From Deltaproteobacteria bacterium (lineage in GTDB: Bacteria; Desulfobacterota; Desulfobacteria; Desulfobacterales; Desulfatibacillaceae): a stretch of 64,000 nt of DNA. The stretch covers positions 1 to 64,000 of the forward strand of contig JACRLG010000020.1 in the NCBI GenBank assembly GCA_016235345.1. Reading direction: 5' to 3'. Below are positions 4,816-49,282 of this stretch, in pieces. The position numbers were made by a program, and so were the translations under genes. Under the pieces are notes generated by a model. The model saw nothing but the letters and a program-made list of their open reading frames with translations. It was not told the DNA's origin and searched no databases. The number at the start of each line of letters is the position of its first letter. The stretch's first letter is position 1.

Positions 4816-6144
4816 ATGGGTCATCTGGTGGCACGGGACGTTTACAGGGACTTGGGCGAAAAGCTGGACAACCTCTGGGTGAGGGCCCCCCAAAAGGAGG
4901 TCTTCTTCGAGATTTTAAAGCACCTCTACAGCCCGGAGGAAGCCGAGGTCGTAATCGGGATGCCCTACACCTTCTCCACGGTGAAGCGCATCGCAAAGGC
5001 CGTTAAAATCCCCGAAGCGAAGCTCGCCGGCATCCTGGAAGGCCTTGCGTCCAAGGGGCTGGTGATGGACATTTTCTCGAACGGCGAGAAGGTTTACGTG
5101 CCCTCGCCCCTCGTTATCGGCCTTTTCGAGTTCACCATGATGCGCACGGACGGCAAGGTCGATTTCAAGCAGATGGCCTCCTTCTTCCATGATTACATGC
5201 AGGGCGACAGCGCGGTTTACGAGGCCAATTTCGGAAACGGGCAGATTACAAGCGTGATGCGGACGGTCCCCCACGGTCAAGCCATACACCCGGACACCTG
5301 CGTGGAGGTGCTGGATTACGAGAAGGCAGAGGCCCTGGTGGACGCCACCGACCGCTTCGCCATTGGCATCTGCTCCTGCCGCCACAAGAAGCATCACCTG
5401 AATGAAAAGCACTGCGACGTTCCCCTTGAAACCTGCACGTCATTCGGAATGGCGGCCGATTACATAATCCGCCACGGTTTCGGCAAGGAAGTCTCCAAGC
5501 AGCAGATGCTGGAAAACCTGAAAACCTCCCGCGAAATGGGGCTGGTGCTAAACGCCGACAACGTTCAGCGCAACATCCGCATGATCTGCCAGTGCTGCGG
5601 CTGCTGCTGCACGGTTTTGCAGGGAGTGAGCAAATTCGGCTATCCCAACACCATCGTAACCAGCCGCTTCATCGCAAAAATCGCCCAGGAGGAATGCATC
5701 GGCTGCGGAAAATGCGCAAAGGCCTGCCCCATCGGCGCGATCACCATGGAGGCGGCACCTTCCGGCGCGATGCTCAAAAGCGGCAAGAAAAAGAAGAAAG
5801 AGCCCAGGGTGAACGAGGAAATCTGCCTGGGTTGCGGGGTCTGCGCCCTGTCGTGCGACACGGCGGCACTGCGCCTGAAAAAGCGGGAACAGCGGGTGAT
5901 TCAGCCCGAAACCACCTTCCACAGGCTCATGCTCCAGACCCTTGACCGGGGAACCATACAGAACCAGCTTTTCGACGACCCGTCAAGCCTCACCCACCAG
6001 GTTCTGCGGCCCATGCTGGGGGCCTTTTTCAAGCTCACGCCTGTCAAAAAGGCCCTGATGAGCGACATGCTGCGCTCAACCTTCCTCTCGGCCATGACAG
6101 CAGGGGCTAAACTTACCGGCAAGGGCTGGATGACGGAGCTTTGA
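4816..6144 (+). CDS. 4Fe-4S protein with N-terminal winged-helix-like region and dicluster ferredoxin domain
   Basis: 442 aa. The first ~110 residues are predicted helical with a winged-helix flavour (YSPEEAEVVIGMPYTFSTVKRIAKAV). A Cys-rich middle follows: GICSCRHKKHH, CDVPLETC and CQCCGCCC around residue 260. The dicluster ferredoxin domain has CIGCGKCAKACP (about residue 294) and CLGCGVCALSCDTAA (about 337). The two ferredoxin motifs are separated by a Lys-rich stretch. It lies 36 nt after the second activase, so it probably feeds electrons to the activase or the dehydratase/reductase; the exact partner is inferred from context. A GGAGG-like site precedes the ATG. Its TGA is followed 15 nt later by a family A element. 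Confidence 0.8.
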   Translation: MGHLVARDVYRDLGEKLDNLWVRAPQKEVFFEILKHLYSPEEAEVVIGMPYTFSTVKRIAKAVKIPEAKLAGILEGLASKGLVMDIFSNGEKVYVPSPLVIGLFEFTMMRTDGKVDFKQMASFFHDYMQGDSAVYEANFGNGQITSVMRTVPHGQAIHPDTCVEVLDYEKAEALVDATDRFAIGICSCRHKKHHLNEKHCDVPLETCTSFGMAADYIIRHGFGKEVSKQQMLENLKTSREMGLVLNADNVQRNIRMICQCCGCCCTVLQGVSKFGYPNTIVTSRFIAKIAQEECIGCGKCAKACPIGAITMEAAPSGAMLKSGKKKKKEPRVNEEICLGCGVCALSCDTAALRLKKREQRVIQPETTFHRLMLQTLDRGTIQNQLFDDPSSLTHQVLRPMLGAFFKLTPVKKALMSDMLRSTFLSAMTAGAKLTGKGWMTEL

Positions 6145-6146
6145 AC

Positions 6147-6266
6147 GGCCGACCACAAGCGCGAACTGCTGTGTCAAACTTCACCGGGCGCGGTGCGCAC
6201 GTATCTCGATACGCTTACGCCCGCGCCCGGCTCGTTTTCCTTGCATTTCATCGCTTGTGATCGGCC
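6147..6266 (-). repeat. Structured repeat, family A copy 2
   Basis: In minus orientation the blocks CGATGAAATGCAAGGA and ACACAGCAGTTCGCG are present. The outer arms GGCCGACCACAAGCG and CGCTTGTGATCGGCC pair with one wobble. The inner helices are AAAC/GTTT, then CCGGGCGCGG/CCGCGCCCGG, then a CGTAT/ATACG tip, all different in sequence from copy 1 but in the same places. The element begins 2 nt after the stop codon of the 4Fe-4S protein gene, and the conserved CGCGAACTG block begins 15 nt after it. Confidence 0.85.
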
Positions 6267-6341
6267 TTACGCACCAGCCGGTTTCAAAGGCGATATCAAA
6301 GCGCTTGTTCAGCCTTGCTCTTTCCATTATCGAAGCCGCGT

Positions 6342-18655: not shown

Positions 18656-20626
18656 ATGGCTATTCCGAACAAACCCCTTGGCGAGCTCAAGGCTGACATC
18701 AATCCGGCTGTTGAAGAGCGCGAAGTGGACGTTCTCATCGTCGGCGGCGGCATGGCCGCCTGCGGCTCCGCTTTTGAAGTAAAAAAATGGAGCAAGGATC
18801 TCAAGGTTCTTCTTATCGACAAGGCCGCTCTCGAGCGCTCCGGCGCAGTGGCCCAGGGCCTTTCCGCCATCAACACCTACATCGGCGAAAACGCTCCCGA
18901 CGACTACGTCCGCATGGTCCGCAACGACCTTATGGGCCTTGTTCGCGAAGACCTCATTTTCGACCTGGGCTGCCACGTTGACGACTCCGTCCATCTTTTC
19001 GAAGAATGGGGCCTCCCGGTCTGGAAAAAAGACGAAGCCGGCAAGAACCTGGACGGCAACAAGGGCCGCAAGATGGGCACCTTGAAGTCCGGCGCCAAGC
19101 CCGTCCGCACGGGCAAGTGGCAGATCATGATCAACGGCGAGTCCTACAAGCGCATCGTGTCCGAAGCCGCCAAGCTGGCCCTCGGCATGGACAACATCCT
19201 TGAGCGCGTTTTCATCGTCGAGCTTCTGCTTGACAAGAACGTCGAAAACCAAGTTGCAGGCGCTGTGGGCTTCTCCGTCCGCGAAAACAAAGTGTACATC
19301 ATCAAGGCCAAGACCATGATGGTTGCATGCGGCGGCGCGGTCAACATCTACATGCCGCGTTCACAGTACGAAGGCAAGGGCCGCGCATGGTACCCCGTGT
19401 GGAACTCCGGCTCCACCTACTATCTGTGCGCCAAGGTGGGTGCGGAACTTTCCATGATGGAAAACCGTTTCACCCCGGCTCGCTTCAAGGACGGTTACGG
19501 CCCCGTGGGCGCGTGGTTCCTCCTGTTCAAGGCCAAGACCTTGAACGGCTTGGGCGAAAACTTCGCGGCCTCCGATGCAGCCAAGGCGGAGCTTGCCAAG
19601 TTTGCTCCCTACGGCACCGCAGCGGTCACCCCCACCTGTCTGCGTAACCACCTCATGCTGTTCGAAATGAAGGCTGGCCGTGGCCCCATCATGATGGACA
19701 CCGTCACCGCCCTGGCCGATCTCGGCAAGACCATGGACAAGAAAGAGCTCAAGCATCTGGAAGCAGAAGCCTGGGAAGACTTCCTGGACATGACCTGCGG
19801 ACAGGCCAACCTGTGGTGCGCCCAGGACTGCGAGCCCGAGAAGAAGAACTCCGAAGTCATGCCCACCGAACCTTACCTTCTGGGTTCCCACTCCGGTTGC
19901 TGCGGCCTGTGGGTCTCCGGTCCGGACTTCGACTGGGTCCCCGCTTCCTACAAGTGGGGCGACAAGGGCAAAGTGTACAACCGCATGACCACCGTCAAGG
20001 GTCTTTTCACCTCCGGTGACGGCGTCGGCTGCTCCGGCCACAAGTTCTCCTCCGGCTCCCATGCCGAAGGCCGCATGGCCATCAAGCAGTGCGTGCGTTA
20101 CGCCTTTGATCATGCCGATTTCAAGCCCGAACTGGCCCTGACCAAGGAAGAGATCGTCGACCTGGTTTACAAGCCGGTCAAGCTGTACAACCAGTTCTGC
20201 GGCTACACCACCGCCCAGGACATCAACCCCAACTACATCAAGCCCGCCGGCATGGCCATGCGGCTGATGAAGGCCACCAACGAATACGGCGGCGGCTGGG
20301 CCACCTATTACCAGACCTCCTCCAAGGCCCTTGAGATCGTCATGGGTCTTCTGGAAGGAATGCGGGAAGACGCCGAGAAGATGGGCGCCGGCGACCTGCA
20401 CGAACTCATGAGGGCCTGGGAAATGATCCACCGCATCTGGACCGTCGAGGCTCATCTTCGTCACATCCAGTTCCGTAAGGAAACCCGCTACCCCGGCTTC
20501 TACTATCAGGCCGACTATCCGGGCCAGGATGACGCCAACTGGTTCTGCTTCGTCAATTCCAAGTTCGATCCCAAGGCCAAAGCATGGGATACCTTCAAGA
20601 AGGAATACATCAAGCTCATCCCGTAA
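18656..20626 (+). CDS. aprA: Adenylylsulfate reductase alpha subunit
   Basis: 656 aa FAD subunit of APS reductase of the succinate dehydrogenase/fumarate reductase flavoprotein family. The FAD-binding motif is DVLIVGGGMAACGSAFEV near residue 25; GDGVGCSGHKFSSGSHAEGR near residue 457 is a signature of AprA. Length matches the dissimilatory enzyme. GAGGAGG lies before the ATG. Codon choice is strongly biased (AAC, AAG, CTG, TTC, GGC), as expected for one of the most abundant proteins in a sulfate reducer. A short GCCGCC/GGCGGC hairpin lies in the 90-nt gap after aprB. Confidence 0.99.
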   Translation: MAIPNKPLGELKADINPAVEEREVDVLIVGGGMAACGSAFEVKKWSKDLKVLLIDKAALERSGAVAQGLSAINTYIGENAPDDYVRMVRNDLMGLVREDLIFDLGCHVDDSVHLFEEWGLPVWKKDEAGKNLDGNKGRKMGTLKSGAKPVRTGKWQIMINGESYKRIVSEAAKLALGMDNILERVFIVELLLDKNVENQVAGAVGFSVRENKVYIIKAKTMMVACGGAVNIYMPRSQYEGKGRAWYPVWNSGSTYYLCAKVGAELSMMENRFTPARFKDGYGPVGAWFLLFKAKTLNGLGENFAASDAAKAELAKFAPYGTAAVTPTCLRNHLMLFEMKAGRGPIMMDTVTALADLGKTMDKKELKHLEAEAWEDFLDMTCGQANLWCAQDCEPEKKNSEVMPTEPYLLGSHSGCCGLWVSGPDFDWVPASYKWGDKGKVYNRMTTVKGLFTSGDGVGCSGHKFSSGSHAEGRMAIKQCVRYAFDHADFKPELALTKEEIVDLVYKPVKLYNQFCGYTTAQDINPNYIKPAGMAMRLMKATNEYGGGWATYYQTSSKALEIVMGLLEGMREDAEKMGAGDLHELMRAWEMIHRIWTVEAHLRHIQFRKETRYPGFYYQADYPGQDDANWFCFVNSKFDPKAKAWDTFKKEYIKLIP

Positions 20627-20664
20627 CATCGGGGTGCGTTACGGCGTAAGGCCTTCATAGCAAG

Positions 20665-20702
20665 CCTCCAGGCGCCGTCAAAAGCGCCTGGAGGTTTTTA
20701 TT
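20665..20702 (+). terminator. Rho-independent terminator of aprBA
   Basis: The 11-bp perfect stem CCTCCAGGCGC/GCGCCTGGAGG is followed by TTTTTATT. It separates aprBA from qmoABC as transcription units. Confidence 0.92.
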
Positions 20703-21035
20703 GATGGAGCTTGAAAAATATCGGTCAAACATGCGCAACATGATGTGGCGTCTATTTTCTATACCCACACCATGCAGGCATTTTGGAAACATCACCGAAT
20801 TTTTTTAAGGCGACATCCCCATTGAAGTTTGCGTGAATGGTCCGCTTTGCGCTTGGCACATGCCTTCCGGGCATGGGCGGGAACAAAAATCGATAGAGCG
20901 CACGAAAGACGTGTGCAAGGCGCAAAGCGGACCTTTTGCGGGACCGGGCAAAAGGTTTTACATTTTTCCAGCAAGGCATACGGCGCGGTTCCAGCGGGAT
21001 CGCGCCGTAATGCTATAGGCGGATGGAGGAATTCC
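20703..21035 (+). other. qmoABC leader with consecutive hairpins
   Basis: No gene seen. A long stem pairs 20839-20860 (GGTCCGCTTTGCGC...) with 20912-20933 (...GCGCAAAGCGGACC), about 20 of 22 positions. It is followed by CCTTTTGC/GGCAAAAGG (20932-20955) and CGGCGCG/CGCGCCG (20981-21007). GGAGGA lies 7 nt before the qmoA ATG. The AT-rich part 20700-20770 probably holds the promoter, but no confident -35/-10 pair was found. Confidence 0.5.
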
Positions 21036-22310
21036 ATGTCACACCACAACGAAGCGGCGAGCGCAGGCATCCTGGTTGTGGGAGGCGGCATCAGCGGACT
21101 CACTGCGGCCCTGGAAGCCGCCGAAGTCGGCCACGATGTCATCCTGGTGGAGAGCCAGCCTTCCCTTGGTGGGCGCGTGTCCCAGCTCAACCAGTATTTT
21201 CCCAAGCTCTGCCCGCCCACCTGCGGGCTTGAGATCAATTTCCGGCGGATAAAGGACAATCCCAGGATCAAGGTTTTAACCATGTCCAGCGTGTCCGGCG
21301 TTTCCGGCGAACCTGGCGCTTACACCGTAACGGTGAAAACGGCTCCCAGGTATGTGAACGAAAACTGCACCTGCTGCGGCGATTGCGCCAAGGCGTGCCT
21401 GACCGAAGTTTCCAACGATTTCAATTTCGGCATGGATTGCACAAAGGCCGCCTATCTGCCGCACCCCATGGCCTTTCCCCAGCGCTACGTGATCAGCCCC
21501 AAGCTCATCGGCACCGAAGACGCCAAGCGCGTCGCGGACGCCTGCCAGTACAACGCGGTTGATCTGGCCATGCAGGAAACCACCCGGGAAATCAAGGTGG
21601 GCTCCATTATCTGGGCCACCGGCTGGAAGCCTTACGACGCCAAAAAAATCGACAACTTGGGTTTTGGCCAGTACGACAACATCGTCACCAACATGATGAT
21701 GGAGCGCATGGCCTCGGAATCCGGACCCACGGCGGGCAAAATTGTCCGCCCCTCGGACGGCACGGGTCCCGAAAGCGTCATTTTCGTGCAGTGCGCGGGC
21801 TCCCGCGACCGCAACCACCTTCCCTACTGCTCCTACATCTGCTGCATGGCCTCCCTAAAGCAGGCCACGTACATCCGCGAGCAGTATCCGGACGCCAAAA
21901 TCACCATTTTCTATATCGACATGCGCGCGCCCGGCAACCGTTACGAGAAATTCTACAAGAAGATAAAGGCTGACAAGAACGTCTTCTTCGTAAAGGGCAA
22001 GGTTGCCGAGGTCTGCGAGGATCCGGCCACCAAAGACATTGTTGTGACGGCTGAAAACGCTGTTACGGGCGAGAAGATCAGGGAATCCGCCCAGCTCGTG
22101 GTCCTGGCCACCGGCATGCAGCCAACCGCCTCGGAATGCGCTCCCCCAGCTTCCGTGTGCGTTTCCGAGGAAGGGTTCATCGTCAACGATTTCGCCCGGG
22201 GTGGAATGTTTGCTGCGGGATGCGCGGCCAAACCCGCCGACGTGGTGTCGTCCAACCAGAACGCCACCGGCATGGCTTTGAAGGCCATTCAGACCCTGGC
22301 GAAGGCGTAG
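21036..22310 (+). CDS. qmoA: Quinone-interacting membrane-bound oxidoreductase subunit A
   Basis: 424 aa soluble flavoprotein of the HdrA type, part of the Qmo complex that links the menaquinone pool to APS reductase. The FAD-binding motif is ILVVGGGISGLTAALEAAE (residues 12-30). The cluster-binding segment NCTCCGDCAKAC lies at about residues 110-121, and CPPTCGLE near residue 59 is another conserved Cys pair. The chosen ATG at 21036 has GGAGGAATTCC upstream; a longer frame reading into the leader hairpins is not real. Ends in TAG, 14 nt before qmoB. Confidence 0.97.
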   Translation: MSHHNEAASAGILVVGGGISGLTAALEAAEVGHDVILVESQPSLGGRVSQLNQYFPKLCPPTCGLEINFRRIKDNPRIKVLTMSSVSGVSGEPGAYTVTVKTAPRYVNENCTCCGDCAKACLTEVSNDFNFGMDCTKAAYLPHPMAFPQRYVISPKLIGTEDAKRVADACQYNAVDLAMQETTREIKVGSIIWATGWKPYDAKKIDNLGFGQYDNIVTNMMMERMASESGPTAGKIVRPSDGTGPESVIFVQCAGSRDRNHLPYCSYICCMASLKQATYIREQYPDAKITIFYIDMRAPGNRYEKFYKKIKADKNVFFVKGKVAEVCEDPATKDIVVTAENAVTGEKIRESAQLVVLATGMQPTASECAPPASVCVSEEGFIVNDFARGGMFAAGCAAKPADVVSSNQNATGMALKAIQTLAKA

Positions 22311-22324
22311 AGGAGGGAAACCCC

Positions 22325-24631
22325 ATGACTAAGAAATTCGGTTTTTACATATGTTCGGGCTGCGGCATCGGCGACGCCGTCAATTGCAAGGAATTGATCG
22401 AAAACGTCCCGGAGGAGGAAGGCTACTCCAACTGCCACGTCCACCCTGCCTTTTGCGGCAAGGAAGGCGTTGACATAATCAAAAAGGACATCGCCGAAAA
22501 GGGCGTCAACGTGGTTGTAATCGGCGCCTGCTCCCGCCGGGTCAACTCCGATGTCTTCAAGTTCGACGGCTGCATCGTGGAAAGGGTCAACCTTCGGGAG
22601 CAGGTGGCCTGGGTCCACGGCAAGAGCGAAGGCGAAATCAACCACACCCAGATGATGGCGGAGGATTATCTCCGCATGGGCATGGTGAAGGGCGAAAAGA
22701 TCGCCCTTCCCGAACCCTACAAGCTGGAGACCTTCTCCCGTAAGCTTTTGGTCATCGGCGGCGGCGTCACCGGCATGAGCGCGGCCCTGGACGCCGCGAA
22801 AACCGGTTACGAAGTTTGCATCGTGGAAAAGGAAGACGATCTGGGCGGCTGGGCAAGGAACGTAAGGAAGAGCCTGCCCACGGCCTACCCCTATCGTGAG
22901 ACCACTTCAGGCCTCTCCGACGCCCTGGTGGCCAAGGTCAGGGCCGAAAAGCGGATCACCGTCAAGACGGCCTCCGTGGTTGCGCGCATCGCGGGCCAGC
23001 CCGGCGACTTCACCGTCACCATCAAAAAGCCCGGCGAGAAGATAGAGTTCGACGTTCCGTTCCCTCTGCCGACCGAGATGAAATGTGACGCAGCCGGCAA
23101 GGAACTGGATGCAGACGCCCTTCGGGTCAAGTACAACGAGTACAACGAAGGCAGGGTTGACATTTTAAAGTTCGACCCCAACGGCGAGAAGTTCGGCGCG
23201 GTGATCCTGGCTGCAGGATGGCGTCCGTACGAGCCCGCCGACGGCGAGTTCGCCAACCTGGGTTTCGGCAAAATCGCGGATGTTGTCACCAACGCGGCTT
23301 TCGAGAAAATGGCCAAGGCCGGAAAAATCGTGCGCCCCTCCGATGGCGCTCCGGCCAAGAACGTCGTTTTCATTCAAAATCCAGACGGAGCCGACGATTC
23401 CGACTTTCCCTACGCTTCGGCGGTAACGAGCCTGGTTTCACTGAAACAGGCCGGATACGTCACCGACGACTACGCGGACGGAAAGGCTTACATCTTCTAT
23501 CAGCACATGCGCACACCGGGCCTTTGGGAGAATTACTACGAGGCGGCCCAGCAGAACCCGGCTCTTTTCATGTCAAAGGGTACCATAACCGGCGTGGAGA
23601 AAAGCGGAAACAGCCTGGTGGTTTCGGCCTCCGACACCCTTTTGGGCCCGAACGTCTCCGTGAAGGCCGATCTGGTGGTCCTGGCCTGCGGCATGGTTCC
23701 CGAAACCAAGTTCGACCCGGTGGTGAACCTCGCCTACCGCCAGGGACCCGGTTTCCGTGACATCGGGCTTTTCGACGGCTACTGCGATTCCAACTTCATC
23801 TGCTTTCCCTACGAAACCCAGCGCACCGGCATTTACGCGGCGGGCGGCATCCGCCGGGCCATGACCATGGAAGAGAGCATGGAAGACGCGACCGGAGCGG
23901 CCCTCAAAGCCATCCAGTGCGTGGAGTCGGTCAATCGAGGCGTGGCGGTTCATCCCCGCTCCGGCGACATGACCTTCCCCGACTTCTTCTTCCAGCGCTG
24001 CACCCAGTGCAAACGCTGCACCGAGGAATGCCCCTTCGGAGCCCTGGACGACGACGAAAAGGGCACCCCGAAGCCGAACCCGACGCGGTGCCGCCGCTGC
24101 GGAACCTGCATGGGCGCGTGCCCGGAACGCATCATCGGATTCGCCGATTACAGCATCGATTCCATCGGATCAATGGTCAAGTCCATTGGCGTTCCCAACG
24201 CCGACGAGTACGACGATCCGCCACTTCGCATCCTGGTCCTGATCTGCGAGAACGACGCCTACCCTGCCCTGGACATGGCCGGCCAGCTTCGCCTCAATTA
24301 CAACCATCAGGTGCGCTTCGTGCCCGTAAGGTGCCTTGGCTCCGTGAACCTGGTATGGATCAAGGATGCGCTTTCCAAGGGCATGGACGGCGTCATGCTT
24401 CTGGGCTGCAAGCACGGCGACGACTACCAGTGTCATTTTGTCAAGGGCTCCGAGCTTGCCTCGGTGCGCATGATGAAAATCGGCGACGCGCTCCAGAGCC
24501 TGGCCCTGGAACCCGAACGTGTGGCACAGTACGAAGTGGCCATCGACGACTACAACAAGGTCCCCAAGATCATCAACGACTTTGTTGAGCAGGTGGAGGC
24601 TCTTGGGCCGAACCCGTTCAAGGGATTCTAG
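22325..24631 (+). CDS. qmoB: Quinone-interacting membrane-bound oxidoreductase subunit B
   Basis: 768 aa HdrA-like flavoprotein with added domains. The N-terminal region has FYICSGCGIGDAVNC and GACSRR (cluster-like Cys). The FAD motif LLVIGGGVTGMSAALDAAK is near residue 142. Two [4Fe-4S] motifs, CTQCKRCTEECPFGAL (about residue 559) and CRRCGTCMGACPERI (about 591), come next. The C-terminal ~135 residues are an MvhD-like domain (LVLICEND, then VRCLGSVN and GCKHGDDYQCHF), known in QmoB. It may take part in electron confurcation between quinol, APS reductase and another donor. The ATG at 22325 follows GAGGGAAACCCC. Confidence 0.97.
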   Translation: MTKKFGFYICSGCGIGDAVNCKELIENVPEEEGYSNCHVHPAFCGKEGVDIIKKDIAEKGVNVVVIGACSRRVNSDVFKFDGCIVERVNLREQVAWVHGKSEGEINHTQMMAEDYLRMGMVKGEKIALPEPYKLETFSRKLLVIGGGVTGMSAALDAAKTGYEVCIVEKEDDLGGWARNVRKSLPTAYPYRETTSGLSDALVAKVRAEKRITVKTASVVARIAGQPGDFTVTIKKPGEKIEFDVPFPLPTEMKCDAAGKELDADALRVKYNEYNEGRVDILKFDPNGEKFGAVILAAGWRPYEPADGEFANLGFGKIADVVTNAAFEKMAKAGKIVRPSDGAPAKNVVFIQNPDGADDSDFPYASAVTSLVSLKQAGYVTDDYADGKAYIFYQHMRTPGLWENYYEAAQQNPALFMSKGTITGVEKSGNSLVVSASDTLLGPNVSVKADLVVLACGMVPETKFDPVVNLAYRQGPGFRDIGLFDGYCDSNFICFPYETQRTGIYAAGGIRRAMTMEESMEDATGAALKAIQCVESVNRGVAVHPRSGDMTFPDFFFQRCTQCKRCTEECPFGALDDDEKGTPKPNPTRCRRCGTCMGACPERIIGFADYSIDSIGSMVKSIGVPNADEYDDPPLRILVLICENDAYPALDMAGQLRLNYNHQVRFVPVRCLGSVNLVWIKDALSKGMDGVMLLGCKHGDDYQCHFVKGSELASVRMMKIGDALQSLALEPERVAQYEVAIDDYNKVPKIINDFVEQVEALGPNPFKGF

Positions 24632-40473: not shown

Positions 40474-41916
40474 TTACTTGATGCCCATGGATTTCAAAAG
40501 CGCCGGATCGACCGCGCCTGTCTGGGAGAGCCCCTTCGATTTCTGGTATTCGGTTATGCCCTTCATGGTTATCGGGCCGAAAATGCCATCCACCTTGCTG
40601 CTGTAGAGGCCCATCGCCTTCAACTTGGTCTGGACCTCGCGGACCCAGCGGCGGCGCTCCTCCCAGGCTGATTCCCGCTTCTTTTTCATCTCCTTGTCGT
40701 CATCCGCCTCAACCGCCGGGGCGGCTTTTCTTTCAGCCTCGTAGCGGCGCAGATTTTCCTGCTGCTCCTTGTATGCCTTCTCAAGCTCCGCCGGTGTGGC
40801 CGCCGCCACCACCGGCTCTGCGGGCTTTGCCTGGGCTGTCGGCGCCTTCTTGCGGGGCGCCTTCACCATGGACGGCTTGACGGGCTTGCCTGCGCGGTAG
40901 GCGGCAAGGTAGCGCTGGACCTCTTCCAGAAGATCGGGAGGATAGAGCTTGCCAGAAAGGTCCTTGTAAACCCGCGAGGCGGCCTTTACTATGGCGGCCC
41001 TGTTTTCCGCCGAGACCTGCACCATTTCAAGCCCGTACTTCATCATTCCTTCAATGCTCTTTTCATTATCCTTGCGGACCCCTTGGCAAAATTGCCGGGT
41101 AACCTCGGCGCGGTCTTCGGCCAGGTTCTCCTTGTATTCATCCGTAAGGGCCTGGTAGGAGGATTCCTTGATAACCACAATGGCAGGCGCGTACCTGACC
41201 TTCAAGGCATTGATGTATTTGCAGCTTGTGTACATCTGGCTCGCTACCTGAAAGATGGCCGGGCCGATGTTGGCGTCGATGATGCCTGAACGGTATGAAC
41301 TGTTGGCCTCGGTGGGCTGGATGACAAGCGGATTCGCTCCCAGGGACTTTAAGAAGCCCACTTCCAGGGGGCCGTACCAGGATTGAAATTTGGACTTCTT
41401 GAAGTCGTCTATCCTGTCGAACTTCCATTTCGAGGAGTAAATGTGCTCCATATCGGCGTCGCTCCACATGAGGAGATGGAAGCCGTTTTTTGCAAAGTAA
41501 TAGGCGAAAGTGGGGTACATGACCTCGCGGATGTAGTCCACCTCGGCCCAGTTGTTGAAAAGAAAGGGCAGGCCCAGAACCGACATTTCCGGGCAGGCCT
41601 GGTTGGCCCCGTGGCCGGTGAGACCGGCTCCCTGAAGCTGGCCGATACGCATCTTGGCGAGGTATTCCTGGTCGTTTCCCATGACGCCGCCCCAATAAAT
41701 TTTGAAGCGCACGGTGTCTTCCGTTGATTCCTTTACCCAGGGGGCCAGGATCGAATCCCACATGGCCGACCAGCCTATGCCTTTGGGGGCAAGCGTCGCC
41801 GCTTTCCATGTCGTGATTTGGGGATTCGCGGCCAGGGCGTCCCCCGCCGTGCAGACGCCAAGACCGAGCGAGCAGACGATTACGGCAACCATCCAAAATT
41901 TCTTCGATGACGACAT
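40474..41916 (-). CDS. DctP-type solute-binding protein fused to a peptidoglycan-binding domain (copy 1)
   Basis: 480 aa. A signal peptide (to about residue 29, AGDALAA) leads into a TRAP-transporter DctP-like domain (about residues 32-340; WKAATLAPKGIGWSAMW, YWGGVMGNDQEYL, PTEANSSYRSGIIDANIGP). A Lys/Ala/Glu-rich linker with coiled-coil character (about 345-415) joins a C-terminal PG_binding_1 domain (VREVQTKLKAMGLYSSKVDG, IFGPITMKGI). No TRAP membrane genes (DctQ, DctM) are nearby. The fusion suggests a binding protein tethered to the cell wall. GAGGG precedes the ATG. A close paralog is at 43032-44471. Confidence 0.88.
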   Translation of the reverse strand: MSSSKKFWMVAVIVCSLGLGVCTAGDALAANPQITTWKAATLAPKGIGWSAMWDSILAPWVKESTEDTVRFKIYWGGVMGNDQEYLAKMRIGQLQGAGLTGHGANQACPEMSVLGLPFLFNNWAEVDYIREVMYPTFAYYFAKNGFHLLMWSDADMEHIYSSKWKFDRIDDFKKSKFQSWYGPLEVGFLKSLGANPLVIQPTEANSSYRSGIIDANIGPAIFQVASQMYTSCKYINALKVRYAPAIVVIKESSYQALTDEYKENLAEDRAEVTRQFCQGVRKDNEKSIEGMMKYGLEMVQVSAENRAAIVKAASRVYKDLSGKLYPPDLLEEVQRYLAAYRAGKPVKPSMVKAPRKKAPTAQAKPAEPVVAAATPAELEKAYKEQQENLRRYEAERKAAPAVEADDDKEMKKKRESAWEERRRWVREVQTKLKAMGLYSSKVDGIFGPITMKGITEYQKSKGLSQTGAVDPALLKSMGIK

Positions 41917-43031: not shown

Positions 43032-44471
43032 CTATTTGACGCCCATGGATTTCAGCAGGGGCGGATCAACGGTCCCGGTCTGGCGAAGACCCTTGGACTT
43101 CTGGTATTCGTTTATGCCCTTCATGGTAAGGGGGCCGAAAATTCCATCAACCTTGCTGTTGTAAAAGCCCAGGGCCTTGAGTTTGGTCTGGACCTCACGA
43201 ATCCTGCGGCGGCGCTCCTCCCACGCGGATTCGCGCTTCTTCCCCGCGTCCTTGTCCTCCTCGTCCGCCACGACAGGAGCCTTCTTCTTCTCCTCCGCCT
43301 GACGGCGCAGGTTTTCCTGCTGCTCCTTGTACGCCTTCTCGATTTCCTCCGCGCTGGCTGCGGCCACCACCGGCGCGGCGGGCTTGGCCTGTGCGGTCAC
43401 GGCCTTTTTCCTGGGAGCCCTTACCATGGAAGGCTTGATGGGCTTGCCGGAGCGGTAGGAGGCAAGGTAGCGCTGGACTTCTTCAAGAAGGTCGGGCGGA
43501 TAGAGCTTGCCGGACATGTCCTTGTAAATCCGCGAGGCGGCCTTCTGTATGGCCGCCTTGTTTTCAGCCGAAACGGTGACCATCTCCAGGCCGTATTTCA
43601 ACATGCCTTCGATGGATTTTTCATTGTCCTTGCGCACCCCTATGCAAAAACGCTCGGTGACGTCTTCCCGGTCATCTTCGAGCCTGTCCTGGTATTCGTC
43701 GGAAAGGGCCTGCCAGGCGTTCAGTTTGACCGCAATGATCGCCGGGGCGTAGCGGGTTTTGAGCGGGTTGATGTACTTGCATGAGGTGTACATCTGGCTT
43801 CCGACCTGGTAGATGGCAGGTCCTATGTTGGCGTCTATGATGCCGGAGCGATACGCGCTGTTGGCCTCGGTTGGCTGAATGGCCACGGGGTTCGCGCCAA
43901 GAGCTTTCAGCATATTGCTTTCAAGAGGGCCGTACCAAGTCTGGAACTTGCTCTTCTTGAAATCGTCCAGCCGGTCGAACTTCCACTTGGAGGAATAAAT
44001 CTGGTCAAAGTCGGCGTCTATCCACAAAAGAAGGCGGAATCCGTTCTGCTCGAAATAATACTGGAAGGAATTGAACATGACCTGCCGGATGTAGTCCACC
44101 TCGGCAAAATTGTTGAAAAGGAAGGGAAGTCCCAGAACGGCGAATTCCGGGCAGGCCAGGTTGGCCCCGTGGCCGGTGAGCCCGGCTCCCTGCAACTGGC
44201 CGATCTTCATTTTCTGTATATATTCGTGGTCGTTGCCCATTACGCCGCCCCAGAAAATCTTGAACCGCACGGTGTCGTCGGTGGACTCCTTCACCCAGGG
44301 CGACACGAGGTTCTCCCATTGCTGGGCCCAGCCGAGCCCCTTGGGAGCCAGGGTGGCGGTTTTCCATACCGTTACTTTTTCCGCCGCCAGGGCCTGGCCC
44401 GAAAGACCGAGGCCCAAAGCGACCGCAAATATTATGACCATGCAGATCCCGGCCTTTTTCGATGCCAACAT
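43032..44471 (-). CDS. DctP-type solute-binding protein fused to a peptidoglycan-binding domain (copy 2)
   Basis: 479 aa, closely similar to the 40474-41916 product over its whole length. A signal peptide (VALGLGLSGQALAA), DctP domain (WKTATLAPKGLGWAQQW, FWGGVMGNDHEYIQ, PTEANSAYRSGIIDANIGP), basic and Glu-rich linker, and PG_binding_1 domain (IREVQTKLKALGFYNSKVDG) are in the same order. The ATG at 44471 has CAGGAGGGCC at 7 nt; the longer frame is rejected. The ligand pocket shows differences from copy 1 (for example IDADFDQIYS versus SDADMEHIYS), so ligands may differ. No TRAP permease nearby. Confidence 0.88.
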   Translation of the reverse strand: MLASKKAGICMVIIFAVALGLGLSGQALAAEKVTVWKTATLAPKGLGWAQQWENLVSPWVKESTDDTVRFKIFWGGVMGNDHEYIQKMKIGQLQGAGLTGHGANLACPEFAVLGLPFLFNNFAEVDYIRQVMFNSFQYYFEQNGFRLLLWIDADFDQIYSSKWKFDRLDDFKKSKFQTWYGPLESNMLKALGANPVAIQPTEANSAYRSGIIDANIGPAIYQVGSQMYTSCKYINPLKTRYAPAIIAVKLNAWQALSDEYQDRLEDDREDVTERFCIGVRKDNEKSIEGMLKYGLEMVTVSAENKAAIQKAASRIYKDMSGKLYPPDLLEEVQRYLASYRSGKPIKPSMVRAPRKKAVTAQAKPAAPVVAAASAEEIEKAYKEQQENLRRQAEEKKKAPVVADEEDKDAGKKRESAWEERRRRIREVQTKLKALGFYNSKVDGIFGPLTMKGINEYQKSKGLRQTGTVDPPLLKSMGVK

Positions 44472-44997
44472 AATTTGGCCCTCCTGAGTGTTAGGTAAGC
44501 TCGACGGAAAAAAACCGCCCATACCCGCAATTTCCGCCGATCATTACGGACGCCGCGCATCGGGCAAGAGCCACGAAAGCGGCTTCCACTTTTTAAATCA
44601 TTTTCTCACAGCCGTTAATTTCAATACAACTAAATATTGTGAAAAATCTCACTCGCCTGCATTTTTGCACATATCCTTCCCCAAAAAAAAGGCTGTAACT
44701 TTCGGAGACAGTGCATTCTTCCCTGATTTCGGAAATATTTTCATATGCGCCCCCATGAAGCGCCTAAAAGCGTCACGCATCCACGCTCTCTGCTTGACAC
44801 TGGCCGCTTATCCTTATACATTTGCATGATTATCGATACTATTACGGGGAGCAGGGTTTAATTCTATTTTCAAACTCCCAAAAGCGTCGGGGGAGTTGAC
44901 TTGCAGTATTTCTCCCCTCGGCCAGATTCCCTTAAAAACGGAAAAGAACCATGCTCCGCTTAATATTTCATTGCCAGAACTTACCCGGATATTCTTA
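44472..44997. other. 526-bp intergenic region upstream of the caspase-like gene
   Basis: Divergent promoter region, AT-rich between 44580 and 44830, containing family B copy 3 at 44841-44966. TTGACA (44794-44799) and TATACA (44815-44820) with a 15-nt spacer could be a weak promoter; if so, the family B copy would lie in the 5' untranslated RNA of the caspase-like gene. No coding frame is convincing. Confidence 0.5.
44841..44966 (+). repeat. Interspersed hairpin repeat, family B copy 3
   Basis: Starts ATTACGGGGAGCAGGGTTTA and ends ACCATGCTCCGCTTAATAT. It has the strongest internal hairpin of the family (AACTCCC/GGGGGAGTT) and long outer pairing of GGAGCA with TGCTCC and GGTTT with GAACC. The right end lies 31 bp before the ATG of the caspase-like gene. 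Confidence 0.82.
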
Positions 44998-47316
44998 ATG
45001 CGCCCAAGGCAAACCATTCGAGCGATCCTGATCGCCATCCTCCTTCTTCCCCTCCTGTCTGCCGCAGGATATTCGGCAGGAGCCCGGCACGCCCTTGTAA
45101 TCGGGGTGAGTTCCCACGATTTCTGGCCCGCCCTTCCGGGCCCGGCCAGGGAGGCCGAAACCCTGGGCGGCCTTTTGATCGACTCATACGGATATGACCC
45201 CGACAAGGTCGTCATACTTACCGACTCATCTGGAACGCCTCCCACCGGGGAGGCCATAACGGGCCGCCTGGATGATTATTCCAAATCATTGGGCCCGGAG
45301 GACAGCCTCCTTGTCTTCTATTCGGGCCGGAGCGCCACCGACAACACGGGAGAAACCTACTGGATTCCCAAGGACGGAAGGAGCGAGTCACGAGTCGGCT
45401 GGCTGGGCTTTTCCGACCTCGTGAAAAAATACATCAACAAAGCCTCGACAACCGCGAAAAGCGTAATGGTCGTCTGCGACACCCCGGTTAAATCCTCCCT
45501 GACCGTTCAGAAGCCCAACCCTCTTTCATCCGAGGACCTGAGATACCCCGAAAAGGCCCTGGAGCTGGGCCGCAGAAAGGGCTGCCAGATAATCCATTCG
45601 GGCGCGCCCTACCGCCCCGGCGACGAATCCACCGACGGCATGGGCCTTTTGGCCTTCCGCCTCATCCGCGCCCTTACGGAAAACGACATGTCAACGGCTG
45701 ACATGGAAACCCTGCTTTTTTCCCCGCATCTTCCGGCTTCGGGCATCGCCGGGCCGCCGCTTCTGAGAGGCAGGATAGCGTCATCGGCCGATGACGGAGG
45801 GCTCTTCGTCATGATCCGTTCCGGAAAGGCCGCGCCGGGAATTGCCCGTGCGCAAGCGCCGGAGGCCGTGCGGATTCCGGAGGTTGAGGCCGCCCCCAAA
45901 GGTGTGAAGATCGTTTCCGCCAGTGTAAGCCCGACCAAGGGGCCCAAGGACGGGCTCTACACCTTCACGGTCCAGACCGCCCAGCCAGCCTCCAGGGTCG
46001 TTTTGCACATAGGCTCGGAAAAGGCCCCCTTCAGGGGCTCCGGCCTCAGATGGACCCTGGAAAAGCGCCTTTCAAGGGCGGGAACCCTGAATTATTCCGT
46101 GACGGCGGCGGACAAGTCGGGAGCCTTCGGCCCGCCAAGGGACGGCTACGTCACCGTGGGCGCATGCCTTGTGAAGGTTACGCGCACGGCGGCGTCGCCC
46201 GGAATAGGCTATTCGGGAAGCGAGTTCACCATTTCCGCTCAGACCGACAGCCCCGCCTCCGCCGCCTTCCTGTGGCTCGACGGCGAAAAGGTCCCAATGA
46301 CCGGCTCCGGCTCCTCGTGGCGGGTGTCGCGGGCGGTTTCGGGCGTGAGTTTCAAATCATACAGGATAACCGCGCTCGACCGTTACGGGGCCGAGTGCCC
46401 GCCTCTTTCGGGCAAGATCATGTTCATCAAGCCTCCGGGCGTCCCGGACGTGGCCTCCCTCTCGCTCAAGCCAAGGTCCGTGGCTCCGGGCGAGGCCTTC
46501 ACCGTGGAGGTCCGCACCTCCGAGCCCGCCGCAAGGGTCACATTAAGGCTTGGCGACAAAGCCCTTTCCATGGAAGGCGGGCCCGTAAGCTGGAAGACCC
46601 GGTCAAGCTGGCCCGAACCGGGAAGCCTCGCCGTGTCGGCTGTGGCCGAAAACCAATCCGGGGTCAGGGGCGCTGCGCGGAACGACTCACTGACGGTTGC
46701 CAGGGCCGCCCCTTCGGCTCCCGTCACTGCCCCGTCCCGGCCATCCTATACGCCAGACCTCTCGGACCGCCCGGCCTCCCTTGAAAAGGCGTCGGCCAGA
46801 CCCGAAACCGTGGGAGTGGATCAGCCTGTCCTCTTCACCGCCAGGGTTAGCGGCGCGGTCAGCAGGGTTGTGGTGTCCATCGAAGGCGTGGACCACGTCA
46901 TGAGGGCGGAAAGCTCCTCCCTGTGGACCTTGAACAAGACCTTCCAGGCCTTTGGCCCGAAAAACTACACCGTAAAGGCCATCGGCAAGGATGGCCACGC
47001 CACCAACGAGGTGGCCGGTTCCATCATGGTCCAGGCCCCACTGGTGAGGGTGGTGCATTCCTTTTTGCAGCCCAACTCCATAAGGCCCGGCGGGGAACTC
47101 ACCGTCATCGCCACCACCGACCGCGAGGCGGCCAGCGTGGAAATAACCCTTGGCGGCGTGGCCCAGACAATGGACGCCATGGACAGCTCCAGAAAAAAGT
47201 GGCGTTACTCCACCACCGCCCCGGACCCCATCGAAAAGGGTTACAAGATAGTGCTGAAGGCCAGGAACGAGGAAGGCAAGGTTGGCAAGGCCCTTACATG
47301 GACCTTGAACGAGTGA
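44998..47316 (+). CDS. Exported degenerate caspase-fold protein with Ig-like repeats
   Basis: 772 aa. A signal peptide or anchor (AILIAILLLPLLSAAGYSAG) precedes a peptidase C14-like domain (about residues 25-270): ARHALVIGVSSHDFWPALPG, YGYDPDKVVILTD and SLLVFYSGRS. Where active caspases have a catalytic His (SGHG) this has SGRS, and the catalytic Cys region reads VMVVCDTPVKSS instead of D-x-C, so the dyad seems lost. The rest holds about five Ig-like units of ~85 residues (each with SxxPTxxxPG..FTVxVxTxxPAxxVxLxxG..xM pattern). Likely a surface or periplasmic binding protein. It is 76 nt upstream of the kinase-SUMF1 gene on the same strand. The start at 44998 is chosen because the longer frame runs through a repeat. 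Confidence 0.75.
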   Translation: MRPRQTIRAILIAILLLPLLSAAGYSAGARHALVIGVSSHDFWPALPGPAREAETLGGLLIDSYGYDPDKVVILTDSSGTPPTGEAITGRLDDYSKSLGPEDSLLVFYSGRSATDNTGETYWIPKDGRSESRVGWLGFSDLVKKYINKASTTAKSVMVVCDTPVKSSLTVQKPNPLSSEDLRYPEKALELGRRKGCQIIHSGAPYRPGDESTDGMGLLAFRLIRALTENDMSTADMETLLFSPHLPASGIAGPPLLRGRIASSADDGGLFVMIRSGKAAPGIARAQAPEAVRIPEVEAAPKGVKIVSASVSPTKGPKDGLYTFTVQTAQPASRVVLHIGSEKAPFRGSGLRWTLEKRLSRAGTLNYSVTAADKSGAFGPPRDGYVTVGACLVKVTRTAASPGIGYSGSEFTISAQTDSPASAAFLWLDGEKVPMTGSGSSWRVSRAVSGVSFKSYRITALDRYGAECPPLSGKIMFIKPPGVPDVASLSLKPRSVAPGEAFTVEVRTSEPAARVTLRLGDKALSMEGGPVSWKTRSSWPEPGSLAVSAVAENQSGVRGAARNDSLTVARAAPSAPVTAPSRPSYTPDLSDRPASLEKASARPETVGVDQPVLFTARVSGAVSRVVVSIEGVDHVMRAESSSLWTLNKTFQAFGPKNYTVKAIGKDGHATNEVAGSIMVQAPLVRVVHSFLQPNSIRPGGELTVIATTDREAASVEITLGGVAQTMDAMDSSRKKWRYSTTAPDPIEKGYKIVLKARNEEGKVGKALTWTLNE

Positions 47317-47392
47317 CGGCCCTTCGGTTTTTCGGCTTCCGGCGCAAGTGTCAGCCTTTTGATAACGTTACAACTTTACGAGCGACAAAGTC

Positions 47393-49282
47393 ATGAGCGA
47401 CAAGACCATAGGAGAATACAAGGTCATCAAGCCTTTGGGGGAAGGCGGGTTCGGTATCGTTTACCAGGCCCGGTCCTCGGCCCCCAAAAGCCCGCTCGTG
47501 GCCATAAAGGTCTTGAACCGCGAAGCTTTGGGCAATGAAAAGGTGGTGAAGAAGTTCTTTCACGAGGCCATGATCCTGGCCCGCCTGGACCACCCCAACA
47601 TAACCCGCCTTTTCGAGTTCTTCCCCGACCGCGAAGCCTACGCCATAGTCATGGAGTACGTGGAAGGGGTATCGCTCCGGGAGCTTCTTTCGAGCCAGCG
47701 CGGGGTTCTGCCCTTTGACCGGGCCATGGACATCTGCCGCCAGATTCTCGCAGCCTTCCAGTACGCCCACGAAAACGGAATCATCCACCGGGACATCAAG
47801 CCCGGAAACATAATGATCAACCCCAAGGGGCAGGTCAAGATCATGGATTTCGGGATCGCCAAGTACTCTTCGGTGGCGTCTTCCGAAACCAAGACCACCT
47901 GGAGATGGGGAGCGCCCCATTACATGGCCCCTGAGCGCTTCCACCAGGACGGCGCCATCGACATGCGCTCGGACATCTACTCCCTTGGAGTGGTGTTCTA
48001 CGAGATATTCACCGGCCACAAGCCCTTCGAGTCGTCCGACACCATAAGGGTCATCTACTGCCACATTAACGAGCTGCCCAAGCCTTTCGACAACTACATC
48101 CAGGGCCTTCCCGAACACGTATCCAATGCCATATTCAAGGCCCTGGAAAAGGACCCCGAAAAGCGATTCACAAGCTGCCGCCAGTTCCTTCTGGCCATGG
48201 AGGGCAAGGACCCCGGCGATGTTCCGGACCCCCTGCCCAAAAGAGCCAACCACGAGGACGCAACCCTCATCGTGGGAGACGAGCTTGCGGCGGCCCTTGC
48301 GGCTTCGAGGGACGGGTCCCAATCCTGGACCAGCCGGGTCAAGGCCGGGCTTTCAAAGAATTACCGCTACCTTGTGGGGCTTTCGATCCTTCTCGTGGTT
48401 CTTGCCGTGGGGCTCGCCGTGGAGAAAAATTTCCTGGTGTTCAAGCGGGACGCGGGCGGCCAGGCCGATGTTGCTGCCATCTCCGGCCACAGGACCAATT
48501 CCAGCGGGCACCAGGAGGCAAGGCATCCTTTGGACAAAAAGATCATGGTGCTCATTCCGGGCTCCGAATTCACCATGGGCTCTGATCGATACGACGATGA
48601 AAAACCCGTTCAGAGGGTCAATCTCTCCGCTTTTTACATCGACAGGACGCCCGTGACCCGCAAGGAGTTCGCGCGGTTCGTATCGGAAACCAATTACGTT
48701 ACGGACGCCGAAAAGGACGGGGCTGCCTTTGTGAGGATGAACCGGAAGTGGGAGAAGACGCCCGGCGCATCATGGAAAATGCCCGACGGCAAAACCGATC
48801 CCGGCGGTGACGGCGACAACCTGCCGGTAACCCAGGTTTCCCATAACGACGCCGCCGCCTACTGTGCCTGGGCCGGAAAAGAGCTTCCCACCGAGGCCCG
48901 ATGGGAGAAGGCCGCCAGGGGAATCGACGGCGGAGTTTACCCCTGGGGCGACCAGGTTCCCGAAAACAGCTTCGCCCATTTCGACGATCCCAAGGGCCAG
49001 CCGGTCGCGGTGGGAAAGTTCGGCCAGAAGTCCCACAGCCCCTACGGGGTCTCGGACATGGCCGGAAACGTCTCCCAGTGGTGCTCCGACTGGTACGCCC
49101 CCGCAGTGCGCGAATACCGCGATCCCAGGGGCCCGGCATCGGGAACCGAGCGGGTGGTGAAGGGCGGAGCCTTCGTGGAAGGCCCGGACAGCCTGCGCTC
49201 CTCCAGCCGGGACCATTACGCCCCGAATTTCGCATCAAATCTCATCGGGTTCCGCTGCGCCTGCGAGAAGCTGGGCCAGTAA
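47393..49282 (+). CDS. Membrane Ser/Thr protein kinase fused to a SUMF1/FGE-sulfatase domain
   Basis: 629 aa. Residues ~8-265 form a Hanks-type kinase: GEGGFGIVYQ, AIKVL lysine, HRDIKPGNIM, MDFGIAK and APHYMAPER, all needed for activity. A linker and a single transmembrane helix (YLVGLSILLVVLAVGLAVE, about 324-342) lead to an extracytoplasmic SUMF1-type domain (about 382-626; MVLIPGSEFTMGS, YCAWAGKELPTEARWEKAAR, GNVSQWCSDWYA, GFRCACEKL). In many conflict and signalling systems this fold binds or modifies a ligand. Topology suggests outside sensing and inside phosphorylation. Likely co-transcribed with the caspase-fold gene. Confidence 0.9.
   Translation: MSDKTIGEYKVIKPLGEGGFGIVYQARSSAPKSPLVAIKVLNREALGNEKVVKKFFHEAMILARLDHPNITRLFEFFPDREAYAIVMEYVEGVSLRELLSSQRGVLPFDRAMDICRQILAAFQYAHENGIIHRDIKPGNIMINPKGQVKIMDFGIAKYSSVASSETKTTWRWGAPHYMAPERFHQDGAIDMRSDIYSLGVVFYEIFTGHKPFESSDTIRVIYCHINELPKPFDNYIQGLPEHVSNAIFKALEKDPEKRFTSCRQFLLAMEGKDPGDVPDPLPKRANHEDATLIVGDELAAALAASRDGSQSWTSRVKAGLSKNYRYLVGLSILLVVLAVGLAVEKNFLVFKRDAGGQADVAAISGHRTNSSGHQEARHPLDKKIMVLIPGSEFTMGSDRYDDEKPVQRVNLSAFYIDRTPVTRKEFARFVSETNYVTDAEKDGAAFVRMNRKWEKTPGASWKMPDGKTDPGGDGDNLPVTQVSHNDAAAYCAWAGKELPTEARWEKAARGIDGGVYPWGDQVPENSFAHFDDPKGQPVAVGKFGQKSHSPYGVSDMAGNVSQWCSDWYAPAVREYRDPRGPASGTERVVKGGAFVEGPDSLRSSSRDHYAPNFASNLIGFRCACEKLGQ

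Follow-up and report, generated by a model that had tools for sequence, protein, structure and literature searches.

Architecture of the gene pair

In the window, by which we mean the whole 64,000-nucleotide stretch of DNA analysed here (from contig C20 of a 4.0-Mb draft genome, G000, that is 97% complete), two genes on the same strand, separated by a gap of 76 nt, encode a degenerate caspase homolog (hereafter the pseudo-caspase) and a membrane kinase with a SUMF1 domain. The pseudo-caspase gene (44998-47316, +) runs from an ATG at 44998 to a stop codon ending at 47316 and encodes 772 aa; the kinase-SUMF1 gene (47393-49282, +) encodes 629 aa. Residues 1-26 of the pseudo-caspase (44998-45075, +) resemble a signal peptide without a lipobox, with a hydrophobic segment (residues 4-29) followed by small residues, and it is from hydropathy alone that export is suggested. 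From 45076 follows the caspase-fold domain (residues 27-275; 45076-45822, +), delimited by model matches and alignments, in which R111 (SGRS) occupies the position of the catalytic His and P163 (DTPVKS) that of the Cys. The remainder (45898-47313, +) comprises five tandem Ig-like domains, with borders in the AlphaFold model at about residues 301-392, 393-480, 481-570, 590-682 and 683-772, as indicated by the strands and pLDDT of the model, weak Big_13/Big_7 matches and matches to Ig receptors.

A profile search of the window protein placed its caspase domain under the Pfam detection level, while PF00656 matches its orthologue in genome G045 at 1e-10, above the cutoff. In the AlphaFold model of the pseudo-caspase (pLDDT 82.9), residues 25-276 superpose on Arabidopsis metacaspase-4 (Z 21.0, 2.5 A, 209 residues), on the caspase-Ig protein MALT1 (Z 19.3) and on yeast metacaspase (Z 18). 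The best Foldseek matches of the model are Ig and complement proteins, its matches over long repeats lacking a global fit. A preliminary description of this DNA, which had proposed an exported caspase-fold protein with about five Ig-like units, is thus borne out in both the fold and the number of Ig domains, and the hydrophobic N-terminus agrees with export. The paracaspase MALT1 of animals shares the caspase-Ig arrangement but is an active cytoplasmic protease, so that the resemblance is one of layout only.

The second protein begins with a predicted cytoplasmic Hanks-type Ser/Thr kinase domain (47393-48190, +; PF00069, 3.4e-58) in which the VAIK, HRDIKP and DFG motifs are intact, as are VAIK, HRD and DFG in its orthologues. 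A single transmembrane helix (residues 323-351; 48359-48445, +), located by a hydropathy scan and kept in all 15 complete orthologues, leads to a putatively extracytoplasmic SUMF1/FGE-like domain (48518-49279, +; PF03781, 1.2e-61). The layout first proposed, with an intact kinase inside, one membrane helix and a SUMF1-type domain outside, agrees with these motifs, the helix and the FGE-sulfatase match (1e-61). What that description missed is that the SUMF1 domain itself appears non-catalytic. It matches solved FGE structures at 8e-41 and so has the FGE fold, and its GGAFVEGPDSL aligns to GGSFLCHESYC of FGE with both active-site cysteines gone; the motif GGxFxEGxxS[LI]RS is present, and the cysteine pair absent, in 15/15 complete orthologues. 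Because both cysteines are missing, the domain is, as far as its residues predict, a second non-catalytic enzyme fold. For the kinase protein the AlphaFold model was set aside, its SUMF1 part being poor (pLDDT 40-70 over much of residues 511-610).

Elsewhere in the window, two paralogous TRAP-type (DctP-like) binding proteins (40474-41916 and 43032-44522) were identified by eye, both of which, on the same reading, carry a C-terminal peptidoglycan-binding-like domain.

Loss of the catalytic residues

The alignment comprised 65 caspase domains, taken from relatives within the class and the phylum. The window protein has SGRS in place of SGHG, and CDTPVKS in place of the ADSCYSG of active relatives. 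The catalytic Cys is absent in all 20 pseudo-caspase relatives, namely 18 included in a tree, the window protein among them, and those of loci L131 and L133 from named genomes, a scan of which gave 10 loci. Its position holds Pro in 10 of the 20 and Val, Leu, Phe, His, Ala or Tyr in the remainder, and the Asp that precedes it is invariant. The His position retains His in 12/20 and otherwise has Arg (4/20) or Gln (4/20), the glycine of HG is replaced by Ser in 17/20, and the substrate-loop stretch SGGVEPV of active caspases has become FGDQHWP in most members. The earlier claim that both catalytic residues are gone therefore holds for the window protein (R, P) but not generally, since 12 relatives keep the His; likewise, of the claimed absence of D-x-C, the loss of the Cys stands but the D is retained. 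A shifted alignment concealing the dyad, the check proposed for the homologs, is ruled out across the 65 domains, none of the 20 pseudo-caspase relatives keeping the dyad.

In the caspase tree, obtained by a quick search, a branch with SH-aLRT 100 separates the 18 full relatives, the window protein included, from the rest. This clade is nested within a wider group whose caspases are His-Cys-intact; the nearest unpaired caspases retain His-Cys. Since the Cys is absent in every relative and the His kept in 12, the simplest order of events would be that the Cys was lost first and once, in the ancestor of the clade, and the His later and more than once. Separate His losses are indeed seen, to Arg in the family of the window genome and to Gln in genus g129 and in G016. 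Comparison of four close species gives a dN/dS of 0.18-0.40 for the pseudo-caspase domain, on which basis we regard the protein as a maintained pseudoenzyme evolving under apparent purifying selection and not a decaying gene. Recent gene decay is ruled out by these values together with frames that are open throughout; in G016 the pseudo-caspase gene is a split frame. The absent Cys suggests that the protein is devoid of proteolytic activity.

Among characterized families, the bacterial pseudo-orthocaspases (Klemencic 2019, PMC6426788) are similar in having a caspase fold, a dyad that is not intact and a conserved clade; the window protein has both the fold (Z 21.0) and the altered dyad (R and P at the two positions). 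Known pseudo-orthocaspases are mostly alphaproteobacterial and cyanobacterial with a typical Tyr-Ser substitution (PMC6426788), and, unlike these, the window clade has replaced its Cys by Pro, Val or Leu and possesses an Ig stalk, an export signal and a fixed kinase partner.

Distribution and operon context

Within the class, 389 genomes were covered, of which 18 have the pseudo-caspase, 17 the kinase orthologue and 16 both, leaving two genomes with the caspase alone and one with the kinase alone (hypergeometric 3e-25, computed ignoring the relatedness of the genomes). Carriers of the pair are bacteria of the sulfate-reducer type, belonging to the Desulfobacterales and allies and including named Desulfobacterales and Deltaproteobacteria MAGs, and a phylum-wide sample of 395 genomes yielded no full-length relative besides the window's own. 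The same-strand order caspase-(PP2C)-kinase is kept on one contig in 17 loci, so that the co-occurrence expected in related genomes was found both in presence and in gene order. Most of these genomes are MAGs with short contigs: the loci of G033, G090 and G215 end at contig ends, and the caspase gene of G001 is spread over two contigs. In the literature covered, outside of which most subscription papers lie, we found no description of a caspase paired with SUMF1 and a kinase.

In the family of the window genome (G000, G001, G004, G006 and G007) the two genes directly adjoin in an operon without PP2C. Outside this family, a PP2C phosphatase of ~266 aa lies between them and the pseudo-caspase ends in a C-terminal Lcl_C domain. 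Upstream lies a divergent set whose genes code for another PP2C, a class III cyclase carrying FHA, and a protein with Lcl_C and SPOR. Neither the phosphatases nor the cyclase-FHA gene, by which the system is completed elsewhere, figured in the preliminary description. On another contig of the window genome (G000:C17, about 5356-6291 and 18942-22794; L122 and L123) there is an orthologue of cyclase-FHA as well as a separate FHA-PP2C-kinase locus, which may supply parts absent beside the pair. Because the SDR, MBL-fold and hydrolase genes that lie downstream in G006 and G001 match those of the window, inheritance of the locus within this family is, to judge from synteny, vertical. Pairwise distances of caspase and kinase correlate (r 0.90) and their trees have 7/12 splits in common, an agreement that may just reflect shared vertical descent.

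Exchange of the kinase domain

A natural domain swap is seen in HGW-Deltaproteobacteria-15 (L133, 5983-12756), where the pseudo-caspase, PP2C and SUMF1 domain are kept and the kinase domain comes from another subfamily. With the other kinase domains this one shares 35% identity, against 67% among those others, while for the SUMF1 domain the corresponding values are 58% and 63%. Retention of SUMF1 and pseudo-caspase despite the kinase swap argues for a conserved link outside the membrane and makes the outer SUMF1 domain the probable partner of the pseudo-caspase. In G047 (L042, 1681-10300), the place of the Ser/Thr kinase behind the pseudo-caspase (here of 1171 aa) is taken by a hybrid histidine kinase together with a response regulator. 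Together these two loci favour an extramembrane role that would be able to feed different kinases. The kinase in turn can do without the pseudo-caspase, since G078 has PP2Cs, the cyclase-FHA gene and the kinase without a caspase.

A putative extracytoplasmic signalling system

To our knowledge, few bacterial Ser/Thr kinases have a known extracellular input, and for most bacterial pseudo-caspases a function has not been established. For the pair described here we lean, by a small degree, towards a reading in which it is the core of a Ser/Thr phosphorylation system running from the extracytoplasmic side to the cytoplasm, with the pseudo-caspase engaging the SUMF1 domain of the kinase. Carried on its Ig-repeat stalk, the caspase fold would have been kept as a binding surface after cutting was lost and, either in the periplasm or on the surface, would sense a ligand or present one; engagement of the pseudo-FGE domain would then change kinase activity inside, the PP2C phosphatase of the same operon (in most relatives) would reverse the phosphorylation, and the divergent cyclase-FHA protein would be the likely phospho-threonine reader and output. 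The comparative basis of this proposal lies in the predicted export signal, the apparent loss of both catalytic centres, purifying selection, gene pairing and the retention of SUMF1 in the kinase exchange, from which we infer that pseudo-caspase and SUMF1 bind directly, which way the signal runs, that there is a ligand, and that the cyclase is the output. The two proteins could also both answer one signal without touching. Of the original idea that a pseudo-protease serves as ligand or co-receptor in an outside-in pair, the pseudo-protease and the paired signalling are supported, L133 suggests SUMF1 as the partner, and the binding stays conjectural. A more specific version, which we hold tentatively and place somewhat short of an even chance, is that the two exported dead folds are a dedicated ligand/co-receptor pair switching the kinase, with the pseudo-caspase as an extracellular subunit serving interchangeable kinase domains, possibly also a histidine kinase. 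If true, bacterial caspase folds would act here as receptors, not proteases. At this locus a pseudo-caspase has a defined partner, the loss of its Cys can be dated to an ancestor, and nature has supplied a domain swap, so that a role as signalling subunit becomes directly testable.

It is rather unlikely that the pseudo-caspase is instead an output, that is, a structural or binding protein of the envelope or surface controlled by the kinase and PP2C without SUMF1 contact. The five Ig domains do resemble surface adhesin stalks, a conserved operon would be equally expected, and the histidine kinase and response regulator of G047 would fit any controlling sensor; SUMF1 is, however, kept through the kinase exchange, and purely cytoplasmic control would not need it. 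Improbable, in our judgement, is a decoy or regulator of active envelope caspases or proteases, comparable to inactive animal caspase homologues, to which the kinase link would be secondary. Active caspases are present in some of the same genomes (e.g. the G016 array and the G001 fusion described below), but PF00656 finds no active caspase in the window genome, and no gene for one lies at the loci of the pair. We give very little credence to a protein that is still enzymatic through a shifted or different catalytic residue, a changed enzyme as opposed to a binding protein: the invariant Asp and the His kept in 12/20 could be taken that way, but the seven residue types at the Cys position include no new conserved nucleophile, HG has become HS in 17/20, and the window branch lacks the His too.

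The preliminary description had also pointed out that caspase, SUMF1 and kinase domains recur together in bacterial conflict and signalling systems. Membership of an anti-phage or conflict system now appears highly improbable. The kinase matches PADLOC kinases such as PD-T4-6, and FGE-type domains are putative sensors in DGR conflict systems (PMC10907252); the PADLOC matches are, however, generic to Hanks kinases, synteny in the window's family is vertical, and there is no active effector, no reverse transcriptase match in the window genome and no rapid variation in SUMF1, which together reject the conflict assignment. A DGR-variable SUMF1 is likewise ruled out, the DGR reverse transcriptase (PF00078) having no match in the 97% complete window genome and the C-terminus being conserved. 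EACC1-caspase systems are two-gene conflict units in which EACC1 is a short single-TM domain (Kaur 2020, PMC7159879), similar to the window pair in joining a caspase to a membrane partner; unlike that of the window, EACC1 is without kinase or SUMF1, and a score of 23.6 bits against a cutoff of 140 excludes the window caspase from this type.

TagR is an FGE-like protein. The T6SS threonine phosphorylation pathway TagQRST-PpkA-PppA-Fha1 comprises a periplasm-governed membrane Ser/Thr kinase, a PP2C and an FHA reader (PMC10482370), and this TagR/PpkA/PppA/Fha1 set is the nearest functional parallel; kinase, PP2C and FHA are encoded together in most loci outside the window's family. Unlike in that pathway, SUMF1 is here part of the kinase, the proposed periplasmic partner is a caspase fold, and FHA is fused to a cyclase. 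The T6SS sheath gene (TssC/VipB) occurs in only 2 of 19 module-carrying genomes and was not found in the window genome; since it is absent in the other 17, T6SS membership is ruled out, and by analogy the pair may work like this pathway without belonging to it.

Related caspases with an intact dyad

Caspase-FGE-sulfatase fusions make up 4.9% of prokaryotic homologues (Asplund-Samuelsson 2012, PMC3501461), and one with His-Cys intact is found in G001, the sister species of the window's (L049, 3434-5389), which counts in favour of the proposed reading. Such fusions resemble the window pair in linking caspase and SUMF1/FGE domains; unlike them, the pair consists of two separate, putatively exported proteins in which both folds are predicted to be non-catalytic and SUMF1 is joined to a kinase.

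The closest His-Cys-intact caspases are about 700-1060 aa where complete, and the one scanned carries Ig-type domains. In eight loci (L107, 6222-10629; L043-L047; L108; L114) the His-Cys-intact relatives adjoin a gene for an OMPP1/FadL-type outer membrane protein, in what looks like a separate, undescribed caspase-porin pair. As the window's kinase, SUMF1 and PP2C have no match in the stretches of these eight loci, the pseudo-caspase and His-Cys-intact lineages seem to have different fixed partners. A further arrangement is seen in G016, where five caspase genes lie in tandem (L040, 3757-12677), four with His-Cys and one with Arg in place of the Cys.
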